From: Sulfurimonas sp.
Lineage (GTDB): Bacteria; Campylobacterota; Campylobacteria; Campylobacterales; Sulfurimonadaceae
DNA: 64,000 nt
NCBI RefSeq assembly: GCF_028714655.1
Contig: NZ_JAQTLY010000001.1
Location: 186,001-250,000 of the forward strand
Direction of reading: 5' to 3'
A program made the translations under genes and the position numbers. Under the pieces are notes generated by a model, which was given only the letters and a program-made list of their open reading frames with translations, made no database searches and was not told the DNA's origin. Positions 18,783 through 22,248 of the stretch are shown piece by piece; position 1 is the stretch's first letter; each line of letters begins with the position of its first letter.

Positions 18783-20492
18783 TTGAAAAAAATTTTAAAA
18801 CGCTATATGCCATTTATAAAAGAGTATAAGTTACAATATTTTTTAGTTCTCATCGGCATTATCTTAACTGTAGGTGCGACAACTGCAACGGCTCACATTA
18901 TGAAGCCGCTTATGGATGATATGTTTATAGAAAAAAAAGAGGAGATGCTTTACTATATCCCTCTCGGGCTTGTGGGAATATACTTTTTTAAATCACTCGG
19001 CAGGTATGTGCAGTCTGTTTTTATGAACTATATCGGTCAGCATATTATGACAAGATTTCGCGAAATGCTCTTAGAGAAAATCATCAACCTTGATATGGCG
19101 TTTTTATACCTAAATCGCAGCGGCGAGCTGATTTCCAGAGTTACTAACGATATAGACAGAATCAGATATTTTGTCTCAAATATGCTGCCGGAGCTTTTTC
19201 GCGAGAGCCTAACCGTTATCGCGCTTCTGGGTTATGTTATATATCTAAATCCGGTACTTGCCTTTTACTCTCTTATCGTCCTTCCCGTAGCTGTTTATCC
19301 GATTTTACTAATCGGTAAAAAGCTTAAAAAATATTCGCGCCGCTCTCAAGAGAAAAATGCGGATGTTCTCAGCAGGCTTACCGAAGTTTTCAACAGCAGC
19401 GAAATCATAAAAGCAAATGCGACGCAAAAGTTTGAATTAGGGCGTTTTAGCGTTCAAAACTGGCAGTTTTTCAAGATAAATATGAAGTCCGTTTATGTAG
19501 GAGATATAGTTTCTCCTTTGATGGAAATAGTCGGTGCGATGGGGCTTGCGGCGGTTATTTTTGTGGGTGGGAGAGAAGTCTATAACGGCAATATGAGCGT
19601 GGGTGAGTTTACGGCTTTTATAACTGCAATCGGACTTGTTTTTCAGCCGATTCGCCGTATAGGTTCAATTTATTCAAAGATTCAAGATGCCGTGGCTGCA
19701 AGCGAGAGAGTCTTTGAAATGCTTGATATGCAAAATAAAATTGTTGACGGGGATAAAGTTTTAGAAGAGGATATCAAGCATATAGAGTTTAAAAATGTAA
19801 AACTAAAATATGATGACTCTTATGCTTTAGATGATGTAAGCGTAGATATTAAAGAGGGTCAAAAGATTGCTCTTGTGGGAGACAGCGGCGGCGGGAAAAG
19901 TACATTTATAAATATGCTTCTTCGTTTTTATGACCCACATAACGGTGAAATACTCGTAAACGGCACAAATATAAAAGAGTTTACGCAAGACTCCCTAAAA
20001 GATCATATCTCTTTGGTGACGCAAAGAATTTATATTTTTCAAGATACTCTTGCGGCAAATGTCGCATACGGACAGGAGATTGATGAAGCAAGAGTTAAAA
20101 ATGCGCTTGTTTTGGCAGATGCGTGGAGTTTTGTAGAGTCGCTGGAAGATGGAATAGAGACAAAAATGGAGGAGTTCGGTTCAAACCTTTCAGGCGGACA
20201 GAGGCAAAGAGTGGCAATCGCCAGAGCAATATACAAAGATGCCTCTTTGATACTTTTTGATGAAGCGACATCGGCACTGGATAATGAGAGTGAAAAGAGG
20301 ATTCAGTCCGCTTTAGATGAGTACACAAAAGATAAAATTACTATAACGATTGCTCATAGGCTCAGCACGATAGAGCATGCGGATAAGATTTTGGTTATGC
20401 AAAAGGGCAGGATTATAGCAAGCGGAAAGCATAGCGAACTTTTAGAGAGTTGCGAAGTTTATCAAAGATTAGCGGGAAAACTTAAAGCTTAG
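18783..20492 (+). CDS. msbA: MsbA-like ABC exporter (lipid A/LPS flippase)
   Basis: A 569-residue half-transporter: six membrane segments in residues about 20-310 and an ATPase domain after about 335. It has Walker A GDSGGGKST, the Q loop (VTQRIYIF), signature LSGGQRQRVAIARA, Walker B LILFDEATSALD and switch His (IAHRLSTIEH). Length and features fit MsbA, which flips lipid A-core across the inner membrane as a dimer. The related PglK exporter of N-glycosylation has the same build; location beside the LPS operon favours MsbA. The TTG start at 18783 lies behind GAGTCGGG. Confidence 0.88.
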   Translation: MKKILKRYMPFIKEYKLQYFLVLIGIILTVGATTATAHIMKPLMDDMFIEKKEEMLYYIPLGLVGIYFFKSLGRYVQSVFMNYIGQHIMTRFREMLLEKIINLDMAFLYLNRSGELISRVTNDIDRIRYFVSNMLPELFRESLTVIALLGYVIYLNPVLAFYSLIVLPVAVYPILLIGKKLKKYSRRSQEKNADVLSRLTEVFNSSEIIKANATQKFELGRFSVQNWQFFKINMKSVYVGDIVSPLMEIVGAMGLAAVIFVGGREVYNGNMSVGEFTAFITAIGLVFQPIRRIGSIYSKIQDAVAASERVFEMLDMQNKIVDGDKVLEEDIKHIEFKNVKLKYDDSYALDDVSVDIKEGQKIALVGDSGGGKSTFINMLLRFYDPHNGEILVNGTNIKEFTQDSLKDHISLVTQRIYIFQDTLAANVAYGQEIDEARVKNALVLADAWSFVESLEDGIETKMEEFGSNLSGGQRQRVAIARAIYKDASLILFDEATSALDNESEKRIQSALDEYTKDKITITIAHRLSTIEHADKILVMQKGRIIASGKHSELLESCEVYQRLAGKLKA

Positions 20493-20496
20493 GAGG

Positions 20497-20516
20497 AGGC
20501 ACTCTAAAGAGTGCCT
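20497..20516. terminator. 9-bp-stem hairpin between msbA and the small peptide gene
   Basis: AGGCACTCT (20497-20505) and AGAGTGCCT (20508-20516) form a perfect stem with a 2-base gap. It lies 4 bp after the msbA stop and, on the other strand, 3 bp after the stop of the small peptide ORF. Neither side has a clean T run, so it may be a processing or stability hairpin rather than a true terminator. A GCTTAGG/CCTAAGC outer pair on the minus strand extends it. Confidence 0.5.
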
Positions 20517-20519
20517 AAG

Positions 20520-20579
20520 CTAACATAACCGACTTGCAAAAATGCAAAGTAGAGTTATTGTGAGTATCAGCTTTTCCAT
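20520..20579 (-). CDS. Candidate 19-aa hydrophobic type I toxin-like peptide
   Basis: ATG at 20579 opens a 20-codon frame giving MEKLILTITLLCIFASRLC, a single hydrophobic helix with a basic residue at each end. A strong Shine-Dalgarno (AGGAGGAG, 20594-20587) lies 7 bases upstream, which is rare for chance ORFs this short. The last residues Ala-Ser-Arg-Leu-Cys match the end of the peptide at 60859 (Ala-Glu-Arg-Leu-Tyr). Size and composition are like Ibs and other type I toxins that damage the inner membrane. It lies downstream of a strong promoter and a structured, terminated leader (20681-20612). No homologue was searched; the call rests on sequence pattern. Confidence 0.6.
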   Translation of the reverse strand: MEKLILTITLLCIFASRLC

Positions 20580-20611
20580 TTAAGGACTCCTCCTGTTGGT
20601 TTTTGGAGGGC

Positions 20612-20681
20612 AAAAAAAAAGGTTGAGGCTCATGACTTCCCCAACCTTTGCCGCTCCGTTAAACCAACAAGCGATACTCAC
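20612..20681 (-). ncRNA. Terminated leader RNA complementary to the peptide translation start
   Basis: A transcript from the promoter at 20716-20688 would start near 20681 with GUGAGUAUC. It meets an intrinsic terminator: stem AAGGTTGGGG (20648-20639) with CCTCAACCTT (20628-20619), then nine T (20620-20612). The leader's 5' bases (20682-20673) are complementary over 10 bp to codons 4-7 of the peptide ORF (20559-20568). Bases 20669-20661 are complementary over 9 bp to 20602-20594, next to the Shine-Dalgarno. The RNA could therefore act as an antitoxin in cis or in trans. It lacks SRP and 6S signatures. Confidence 0.55.
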
Positions 20682-20687
20682 AGAAAA

Positions 20688-20716
20688 ATTATAACATAAA
20701 AGGTAAACTTTATCAA
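20688..20716 (-). promoter_or_regulatory. Near-consensus sigma-70 promoter for the leader/peptide transcript
   Basis: On the minus strand TTGATA (20716-20711) and TATAAT (20693-20688) are spaced by 17 bp, one base from full consensus. The predicted start is about 7 bases on, near 20681, exactly at the beginning of the sequence complementary to the peptide ORF. No other gene is within reach of this promoter on that strand except the small peptide ORF. Confidence 0.72.
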
Positions 20717-20774: not shown

Positions 20775-20843
20775 CTAGATTCCGTGCTTGACACGGAATG
20801 ACGGAAAGTTGGTCATCCTGAACTTGATTCAGGATCTAACTAG
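20775..20843. repeat. Dispersed CCTGAA/TTCCAA-type repeat
   Basis: Two adjacent hairpins: ATTCCGTG-CTTGA-CACGGAAT (20779-20799) and ATCCTGAA-CTTGA-TTCAGGAT (20814-20834). CTAGAT begins the unit and ATCTAACTAGAT closes it. The same pair of hairpins with other stem bases occurs at 2885, 37517 and 38121, where the loop CTTGA or its complement is conserved. It sits in front of hemN and holds no coding sequence. Confidence 0.75.
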
Positions 20844-20880
20844 ATAATCGTTCGAAGCTTTATAAAGCGTAAGGATAAAT

Positions 20881-22248
20881 ATGTTAGATTTTGCAAAATT
20901 TACAAAGTACTCAAAACCGGGACCTCGTTATACAAGTTACCCTACGGCGTTAGAGTTTAGCGATACATTCGGGTATGACGAGTATATAAAAAAGTTAGAA
21001 CAACAAGACCCGTCTCGCCCCCTTAGCCTATACTTTCATCTCCCTTTTTGTAAAAATGCATGCTATTTTTGCGGTTGTAATGTCGTCTTTACCTCAAAAG
21101 AGGATAAGATGGTTCGCTACATCGACTACTTAAAAAGAGAGTTAAAAATACTCGCTTCGTATGTAAACTGCTCTCGTAGTGTGATTCAGATGCATTTTGG
21201 CGGAGGAACTCCTACTTTTTTCAATGCCCCGCAATTAGAAGAAGTTATAAAAGAGATTAAATCTTTTTTCCCAAATTTTGTAAAGGATGCCGAGATTAGC
21301 TGCGAGATTGACCCTCGCCATATAAACGAAGATCAGATGAGAGTATTAAGCCAAAACGGTTTTAACCGCGTGAGCTTCGGTTTGCAGGATTTTAACGAAA
21401 AAGTTCAAACTGCCGTTCACAGAATCCAGCCTTACGCTATCACGAAAGAAGCGATGGATTTGGCTAGAAAATATGGTATGCATTCAGTCAATGTCGACCT
21501 TATTTACGGACTTCCGTTTCAAAATTTAGAGACTTTTAAAGAGACTCTTGAGCTAGCCCTTACGCTCAATCCTGACAGATTTGCGGTATTTAACTACGCG
21601 CATGTGCCTTGGATGAAAAAGACTATGCGTAAAATCGATGAGACGACTCTTCCTCTGCCTGACGAGAAGCTCCGTATCATGCAGCATACCATTAACTTTT
21701 TAACTTCCCACGGGTATAAAATGATAGGGATGGATCACTTCGCAAAGCCGGAGGATGAACTTTTCAAGGCGATAGAAAAAGGCGAACTGCATAGAAATTT
21801 TCAAGGCTATACTACAAAAGGCGGGGCTGATTTGGTAGGCGTGGGGCTTACTTCCATCGGTGAGGGAGTAGACTACTACGCTCAAAACACAAAAGAGATG
21901 AGAGAATATGAAGAGGCGATTGATGCCGGCAAACTTCCGTTTGAGCGCGGGATTGCACTAAATCAAGATGACAAGATAAGACAATTCGTAATTATGGAGC
22001 TTATGAGCAACTTCAAGCTTGATATAAAAAGGTTTGAAAAACTCTTTGGCGTTGAGTTTAAAACATATTTTGCGGATGCGATAGAAGCGTTAAAACCTTT
22101 TGAGGATGATGAACTCTTAACGATAAGCGATGATTTTATAGAGTGCAGCCAAACAGGGACGCTGCTTATTAGAAATATTGCGATGCCTTTTGATGCATAT
22201 ATGAAAAAACATGCCGCAAACGCAAAAACATTCTCTAAAACGGTTTGA
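20881..22248 (+). CDS. hemN: Oxygen-independent coproporphyrinogen III oxidase
   Basis: A 455-residue radical-SAM enzyme that decarboxylates two propionate side chains to make protoporphyrinogen IX without oxygen. The iron-sulfur motif is CX3CX2CXC: Cys57, Cys61, Cys64, with Cys66 following (FCKNACYFCGC). Further HemN features are MHFGGGTPTF, EIDPRH, RVSFGLQDFN, VDLIYGLP and the C-terminal HemN domain. HemN-like proteins such as HemW lack the fourth Cys and this length, so it is likely a true HemN. Its TGA stop overlaps the ATG of the next gene, so the two are coupled. Confidence 0.93.
   Translation: MLDFAKFTKYSKPGPRYTSYPTALEFSDTFGYDEYIKKLEQQDPSRPLSLYFHLPFCKNACYFCGCNVVFTSKEDKMVRYIDYLKRELKILASYVNCSRSVIQMHFGGGTPTFFNAPQLEEVIKEIKSFFPNFVKDAEISCEIDPRHINEDQMRVLSQNGFNRVSFGLQDFNEKVQTAVHRIQPYAITKEAMDLARKYGMHSVNVDLIYGLPFQNLETFKETLELALTLNPDRFAVFNYAHVPWMKKTMRKIDETTLPLPDEKLRIMQHTINFLTSHGYKMIGMDHFAKPEDELFKAIEKGELHRNFQGYTTKGGADLVGVGLTSIGEGVDYYAQNTKEMREYEEAIDAGKLPFERGIALNQDDKIRQFVIMELMSNFKLDIKRFEKLFGVEFKTYFADAIEALKPFEDDELLTISDDFIECSQTGTLLIRNIAMPFDAYMKKHAANAKTFSKTV

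Follow-up and report, generated by a model that had tools for sequence, protein, structure and literature searches.

Among the intergenic sequences of the 64,000-nucleotide stretch of Sulfurimonas sp. DNA analysed here (the window), one short unit belongs to a real peptide-and-RNA family that is apparently undescribed. Its most probable way of working is that of a type I toxin held under a self-made lock, the toxin role being a prediction. In the window it is represented by a 19-codon open reading frame (ORF) on the minus strand, running from 20579 to 20520 and reading MEKLILTITLLCIFASRLC before its stop codon. Each single sign of this ORF is weak, and the ORF alone is no better than chance; we judge it real because 100 distinct intact copies are conserved within the bacterial family. 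A reading of the window made from its sequence only had proposed a genuine gene for a peptide of a size that gene callers miss, and those copies bear it out.

The unit in the window

The elements on which the sequence-only reading had relied are all present as it described them: the 19-codon ORF (20520–20579, minus strand, as are all features given below), the Shine-Dalgarno (SD) sequence AGGAGGAG (20587–20594) exactly 7 nt before the ATG, a near-consensus promoter, and a hairpin after the stop. The promoter (20688–20716) consists of TTGATA (20716–20711), a 17-nt spacer and an extended -10 element TATAAT (20693–20688), with 11 of 12 matches to consensus, and the RNA probably starts at about 20682. 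A promoter scan alone is weak, finding one promoter-like site against 1.4 in shuffled sequence. The post-stop hairpin, GGCACTC-TTTA-GAGTGCC, is evident in both sequence and predicted fold at 20498–20515. That first reading did not see the long leader, its hairpin with a run of nine T (T9), the helix formed by the ORF and the RNA 5' end, or the anti-SD.

Together these features make up a minus-strand unit of approximately 220 nt, of which the ORF is the 3' part, situated between two genes that we take, from the ORF list, to be msbA (ending at 20492) and a hemN-like gene (starting at 20881). The ORF had been placed opposite msbA; the two are indeed convergent, but there is no overlap between their frames: the ORF lies about 27 nt past the msbA stop codon, and it is the tail of the unit that reaches into that stop codon. 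The fold of the whole unit has a z-score of -7.1 (0 of 200 shuffles as low), and the opposite strand scores -6.4, which is what inverted repeats would lead one to expect. The interval between the unit and hemN contains another two inverted repeats (20779–20860), CCGTG..CACGG and CCTGAA..TTCAGG, which are missing in the short msbA-hemN gaps of relatives.

Distribution of the family

A DNA search found the unit three times in this genome, as the window copy and two copies on another contig, and produced matches in 9 of 60 sampled genomes of the genus, the matches L015 and L016 covering a flank only. The exact leader pattern was present in 21 of 135 genus genomes, while its reversed control gave 0 matches. 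An ORF pattern occurred in 28 of the 135, i.e. patchily, with 4 of its 60 matches due to chance; its 23 matches that were not previously known comprised 18 intact units with a T9 leader, one remnant and the four chance matches. A covariance model built from 42 copies (R1) matched 53 of 228 genomes of the bacterial family, in 7 of 18 genera, at E<=0.01 with decayed copies counted in, and 15 of 397 phylum genomes at E<=0.001. A second model (R2) matched 23 of 398 genomes of the order at E<=0.01. Some R1 and R2 matches are weak, with a recognisable ORF in 11 of 18 distinct loci viewed outside the bacterial family; at L196 and L197 the model matched the wrong strand and the other strand reads properly. 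The unit occurs in Sulfurimonas, in the second main genus Sulfuricurvum (e.g. Sulfuricurvum sp. STC_37, G558), and in relatives.

Copies were collected with a generic caller. Its requirements were a T run of 7 or more, a hairpin, an SD and a hydrophobic ORF of 14–22 codons; it drops identical cores, and it prescribes only ranges for peptide length and T count, leaving the values 19 and 9 free to emerge. It returned 106 distinct copies, 100 of them intact copies within the bacterial family, and among these the peptide has 19 residues in 100 of 100 and the tract is T9 in 99 and T8 in one. Dropping every 19-residue copy more than 90% identical to one already kept left a non-redundant set of 89 from 103. 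Disrupted copies, tallied by hand, number 19; L018 was left out as chance, L163/L164 (the same as L021/L020) were counted once, and the tally does not include L104, L192 or the weakest R1 hits. An exact-eight-T pattern had four matches on genome contigs, three of them decayed copies and one due to chance.

In other collections, the leader pattern had 0 matches in IMG/VR, and one 401-base query had no credible match among plasmids and phages; a 50-base plasmid hit of 82% within a Bosea calcium-binding protein gene was taken as chance. Rfam gave 0 matches at gathering score across the whole window, and in the locus at E<=5 only sub-threshold matches, none of them credible.

Insertion sites and decay

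The msbA locus has a match in 30 genomes, and it was viewed in 19 other than this one. In 13 of the 19, msbA stands beside hemN without the unit, across gaps of 38–185 nt, and the only genome found with a unit at this site, Sulfurimonas indica NW8N (G065), has a T8 tract and an ORF decayed to 9 codons. Comparison of these sites indicates a discrete unit of approximately 220 bp with empty sites in relatives. The unit carries no transposase and its neighbours are mostly core genes. Prophage or mobile-element cargo was rejected as a rule, since only 3 of 94 neighbour proteins scanned (from 168 counted neighbour ORFs) match phage integrase.

Genes for MoeA or PTPS recur beside units in several genomes of the genus (7–9 of 94 neighbours), which points either to one old site held in common or to a favoured target. 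Locus L158 (3201 bases) contains a unit whose leader and SD are parted by a small element with inverted ends; a repeat of CCTCCTAAAAC apparently flanks this element, and the ORF of the unit is decayed. At L057 (minus strand, ~3062) the ORF is cleanly gone between two AAGGGG stretches, those of the SD and the 3' hairpin, leaving a remnant of leader and tail with T7. Units also occur close together: two different tandem units lie 327 nt apart at L195 (~1125–1660), and two lie approximately 310 nt apart on contig 26 of G065.

The peptide

There are 59 distinct peptides among the first 62 copies, a set pre-filtered for K/R3, L10, C12 and A/T15; residue counts come from the unfiltered 89 non-redundant copies, in which L10 is found in 89, C12 in 87, A15 in 81, and P16 and F14 in 80 each. 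The C-terminal motif A-x-R-L-(C/Y), which the window peptide had suggested as a search pattern, is not that of the family, where 80 of 89 non-redundant copies have proline at position 16 and 71 have M or L at position 17; the window copy is a divergent member. The gene had also been staked on the frame surviving in relatives that keep the surrounding DNA. The outcome is mixed: in G065, the one genome found to share the site, the frame is decayed, but elsewhere it is conserved, with a pN/pS of 0.48 for the whole ORF and 0.39 for codons 9–19 across the 89 copies. Outside the bacterial family the peptides have diverged, yet the design is kept; for example, MWRLLLIILLLCLLTKKLY is preceded by T9, MQQLLLIVILLMFVITKLH and MGNLIVIIVLLMLIITKLY by T7, and MRRALLLLLLIAIFFAIKAY, which has 20 residues, by T9, the extremes being 14 residues at L196 and 22 residues with a GTG start at L221. 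Across the order, length and hydrophobic pattern are kept while sequence changes.

The proposed likeness to Ibs holds in that the family peptides are hydrophobic and, at 19 residues, fall within the 18–19 of the Ibs description, but it does not extend to the Pfam Ibs profile. PF13956 scored over its cut-off in 0 of 12 genomes, against 1 of 14 control genomes, and the present genome yielded none even at E<=10. A Pfam search with four 20-residue members, the 19-residue peptides being below the tool minimum, gave no real match.

RNA structure and covariation

Three helices join the leader to sequences at or beyond the T tract. In P1 the RNA 5' end (TGTGAGTATC, 20673–20682) pairs with codons 4–7 of the ORF (GATACTCACA, 20568–20559), as both folding and covariation indicate. 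P2 pairs CTTGTTGGTTT (20661–20671) with 20602–20592, a stretch that reaches from just ahead of the SD into its first bases, and P3 pairs GGAGCGGCAAA (20647–20657) with TTTGCCCTCC (20614–20605), overlapping the last three T of T9. Folding also predicts a hairpin inside the ORF, TTGCA-TTTT-TGCAA (20534–20547), with GTGCA/TGCAC stems in most copies. At the 3' end, CTCCTCCT (20491–20498) is a perfect complement of the SD. In the window copy the predicted energies are -15.9 kcal/mol for P1, -13.9 for P2 and -16.1 for SD/anti-SD. P1 and the SD/anti-SD pairing cross, and therefore must form a pseudoknot or alternate.

In the consensus structure of 42 sequences 95.0% of cells are paired. Changes on both sides affect 178 cells, compared with 54.7 ± 7.7 after shuffling (0 of 500 as high) and 18–22 in slid structures. 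Both-side changes affect 9 of the 10 pairs of P1, some with all four Watson-Crick types; P3 is nearly invariant within the 42 sequences and changes from GGC:GCC to GAC:GTC outside them. Each copy's own strands were also set against those of other copies (89 copies, 10000 permutations, kinship ignored), and for every pairing tested 0 of 10000 permutations reached the observed value. Own and foreign means were -13.9 and -5.3 kcal/mol for P1, -10.4 and -3.4 for P2, -6.4 and -3.8 for the stop hairpin, -13.7 and -11.7 for the SD with the 3' end, and -5.5 and -5.0 for the ORF hairpin, the gap being small in the last two because their sequences vary little.

Predicted openness of the SD averages 0.14 in the full RNA across the family and 0.43 without leader and 3' end. 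The window copy behaves in the opposite way, at 0.46 in full and 0.16–0.21 without leader, the value with both leader and 3' end removed being 0.21. As a family, these units show one trait of a type I toxin-antitoxin system, a small hydrophobic peptide ORF under translational silencing, the latter as predicted from covariation.

The probable leader terminator and the nine-T tract

The leader hairpin (20621–20646), seen in the fold and across the family, has a palindromic apical loop UCAUGA (20635–20630) and is followed by exactly nine T (20612–20620). Its mean energy over 89 copies is -17.0 kcal/mol; it is absent from the list of our terminator scan, which allows loops of 3–8. Hairpin and tract are likely to act together as an intrinsic terminator upstream of the ORF. 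At the same loci the commonest long run is T7 (287 of 446 runs of at least 7), and 86 of 94 T9 runs lie inside units. T9 is kept in 99 of 100 intact copies and 11 of 19 disrupted ones (p 8e-7), the eight deviants all being shorter and none longer. A tract that curbed read-through into a harmful gene should indeed be retained for as long as the ORF works; the simple decay of dead copies would also account for the difference.

The hairpin tip is a six-base palindrome in 80 of 89 copies, as against a mean of 19.7 and a maximum of 32 for shuffled tips (2000 shuffles), although common ancestry makes the independent events fewer than the copies. The palindromes are TAATTA (51), TCATGA (18), TTCGAA (8), TGATCA (2) and TTATAA (1); they differ from one another by matching changes, and the loop is too small for such pairs to form within itself. 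The simplest reading of the tip would be a loop-loop contact between two RNAs, and another a palindrome-binding protein.

Proposed mode of action

We think it reasonably probable that the unit is a self-silencing gene for a membrane-active peptide, which works like a type I toxin. A single promoter would produce an RNA with a strong leader hairpin and nine U, and, given that hairpin and tract, most transcripts would stop there as a leader RNA of approximately 70 nt. The covariation suggests that read-through RNA would fold with its ribosome-binding site between two helices, one joining the 5' end to codons 4–7 and the other joining the leader to the sequence before the SD, and that the SD could also pair with the RNA 3' end. 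Peptide would then be made only after processing or unfolding had removed these locks. By analogy with IbsC-like peptides, the 19-residue hydrophobic product would probably enter the inner membrane and halt growth. The earlier suggestion of a type I toxin-like family is thus upheld as regards multi-copy 19-residue hydrophobic peptides in one bacterial order and a typical RNA anatomy, its toxic function being predicted.

The antitoxin and alternative readings

Conservation fades approximately 60 nt after the stop codon and 30 nt before the -10 element, and the flanks beyond are without conservation; a cis antitoxin must therefore lie inside the unit. One candidate is an antisense RNA starting near the start codon and silencing the mRNA, as in a classical type I pair like aapA/IsoA. 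The aapA mRNA, as presented in the available text of its description (PMC6733600), shares the logic of long-range pairing, several anti-SD stretches and a sequestered SD, and 19 of the 31 copies with peptides of the N/S class have an antisense -10-like hexamer over their start codon, so that antisense RNA is possible in that class. The same hexamer is found in only 1 of 55 copies of the D/E class, to which the window copy belongs, and in 0 of 3 others. No antisense -10 position exceeds 33% of the 86 copies used (from 100), that maximum falling on the sense -10 itself with 23% at the start codon, whereas the sense -10 (at least 5 of 6 matches) is present in 85% against a median of 8% over positions. 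By eye, no T tract to end an antisense RNA was seen. Hence we regard a classical pair as rather unlikely. Read-through from a convergent neighbour was rejected as a universal source of antisense: the 3' neighbour, often no more than 65 nt away, is convergent in 51, co-directional in 29 and far in 4 of the 84 copies that have a neighbour.

Since no antisense promoter is conserved, the terminated leader RNA becomes the candidate antitoxin of the self-silencing gene. All three helices P1, P2 and P3 have their 5' strands in this RNA, and the computed net pairing with the leaderless mRNA is -24.3 kcal/mol for a copy's own leader and -7.9 for a foreign one, the own leader being stronger in 89 of 89. 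From 0.43 without leader and 3' end, mean predicted SD openness returns to 0.30 once the own leader is added, but only to 0.41 with a foreign one. We tentatively raise the possibility of a one-promoter type I system in which the T9-terminated leader would act as antitoxin and re-lock leaderless toxin mRNA in trans, and in which the palindromic loop may pair two leaders. It is similarly speculative that toxin and antitoxin would differ only in whether polymerase passes T9, with the T count setting their ratio. Special orthogonality of co-resident copies was rejected, as computed cross-talk is -7.8 kcal/mol within and -7.7 between genomes; pairs close to cognate number 6 of 150 in the same genome and 235 of 10356 between genomes. 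In these models, the SD openness of the window copy and the equal cross-talk of co-residents count against the leader as antitoxin.

That the RNA lock might instead guard a peptide used for signalling, or one that regulates as a small membrane protein, is suggested by the conserved Cys12 and F-A-P, which exceed the needs of a generic hydrophobic helix. A toxin better fits the several translation locks, the spread in many copies, the frequency of decay and the positions next to core genes of unrelated function, and we consider this alternative improbable. Least probable is a gene for a regulatory leader sRNA with the peptide as a minor or harmless by-product: the highly conserved terminator hairpin, palindromic loop and T9, and the ORF-less leaders persisting among the 19 disrupted copies, would suit it, but T9 is kept less often once the ORF is lost and both the pN/pS and the order-wide constancy of peptide length and hydrophobic pattern speak for the peptide.

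Comparison with known systems

We found no description of the family in the titles and opening lines of abstracts listed for toxin-antitoxin systems and small RNAs of Sulfurimonas, for type I toxins of Epsilonproteobacteria and Arcobacter, and for leader or premature-termination antitoxins, in a collection that lacks most subscription journals. The family adds peptides invisible to gene callers to a group whose type I system, in the literature available, is aapA/IsoA, and supplies about 100 naturally occurring versions of a single RNA switch, whose covariation is unusually clear. Two questions become open to test: whether one promoter can, through attenuation, give rise to both a toxin and its antitoxin, and what keeps a homopolymer at exactly nine T. 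Helicobacter belongs to the same bacterial order as the hosts of the unit.

Nearest in logic is aapA/IsoA of Helicobacter pylori, with a small membrane peptide whose full-length mRNA, in the portions of the reports available, is inert through long-distance pairing and has its SD masked by anti-SD stretches (PMC6733600, PMC8309996). AapA1 has 30 amino acids (PMC8309996, in part), compared with 19 here; in the present family the partner of the 5' end is the ORF and that of the 3' end is the SD, and there is a probable leader terminator with a fixed T9 and a palindromic loop, and no conserved antisense promoter. Nearest in peptide size is ibs/Sib of Escherichia coli, IbsC being a hydrophobic peptide that likewise has 19 amino acids according to the same partial text (PMC8309996). 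The family differs in having no PF13956 match, in its conserved Cys12 and Pro16, and in pairing with its own leader, not with a conserved antisense gene. In hok/Sok, the hok mRNA is activated by processing and the Hok peptide is larger than 19 residues. As in our units, the hok mRNA is inactive by folding, with its SD sequestered by a downstream anti-SD, to follow the available text of PMC6733600; the family described here departs from it in its smaller peptide, in the probable terminator placed inside its leader, and in having no conserved antisense gene.
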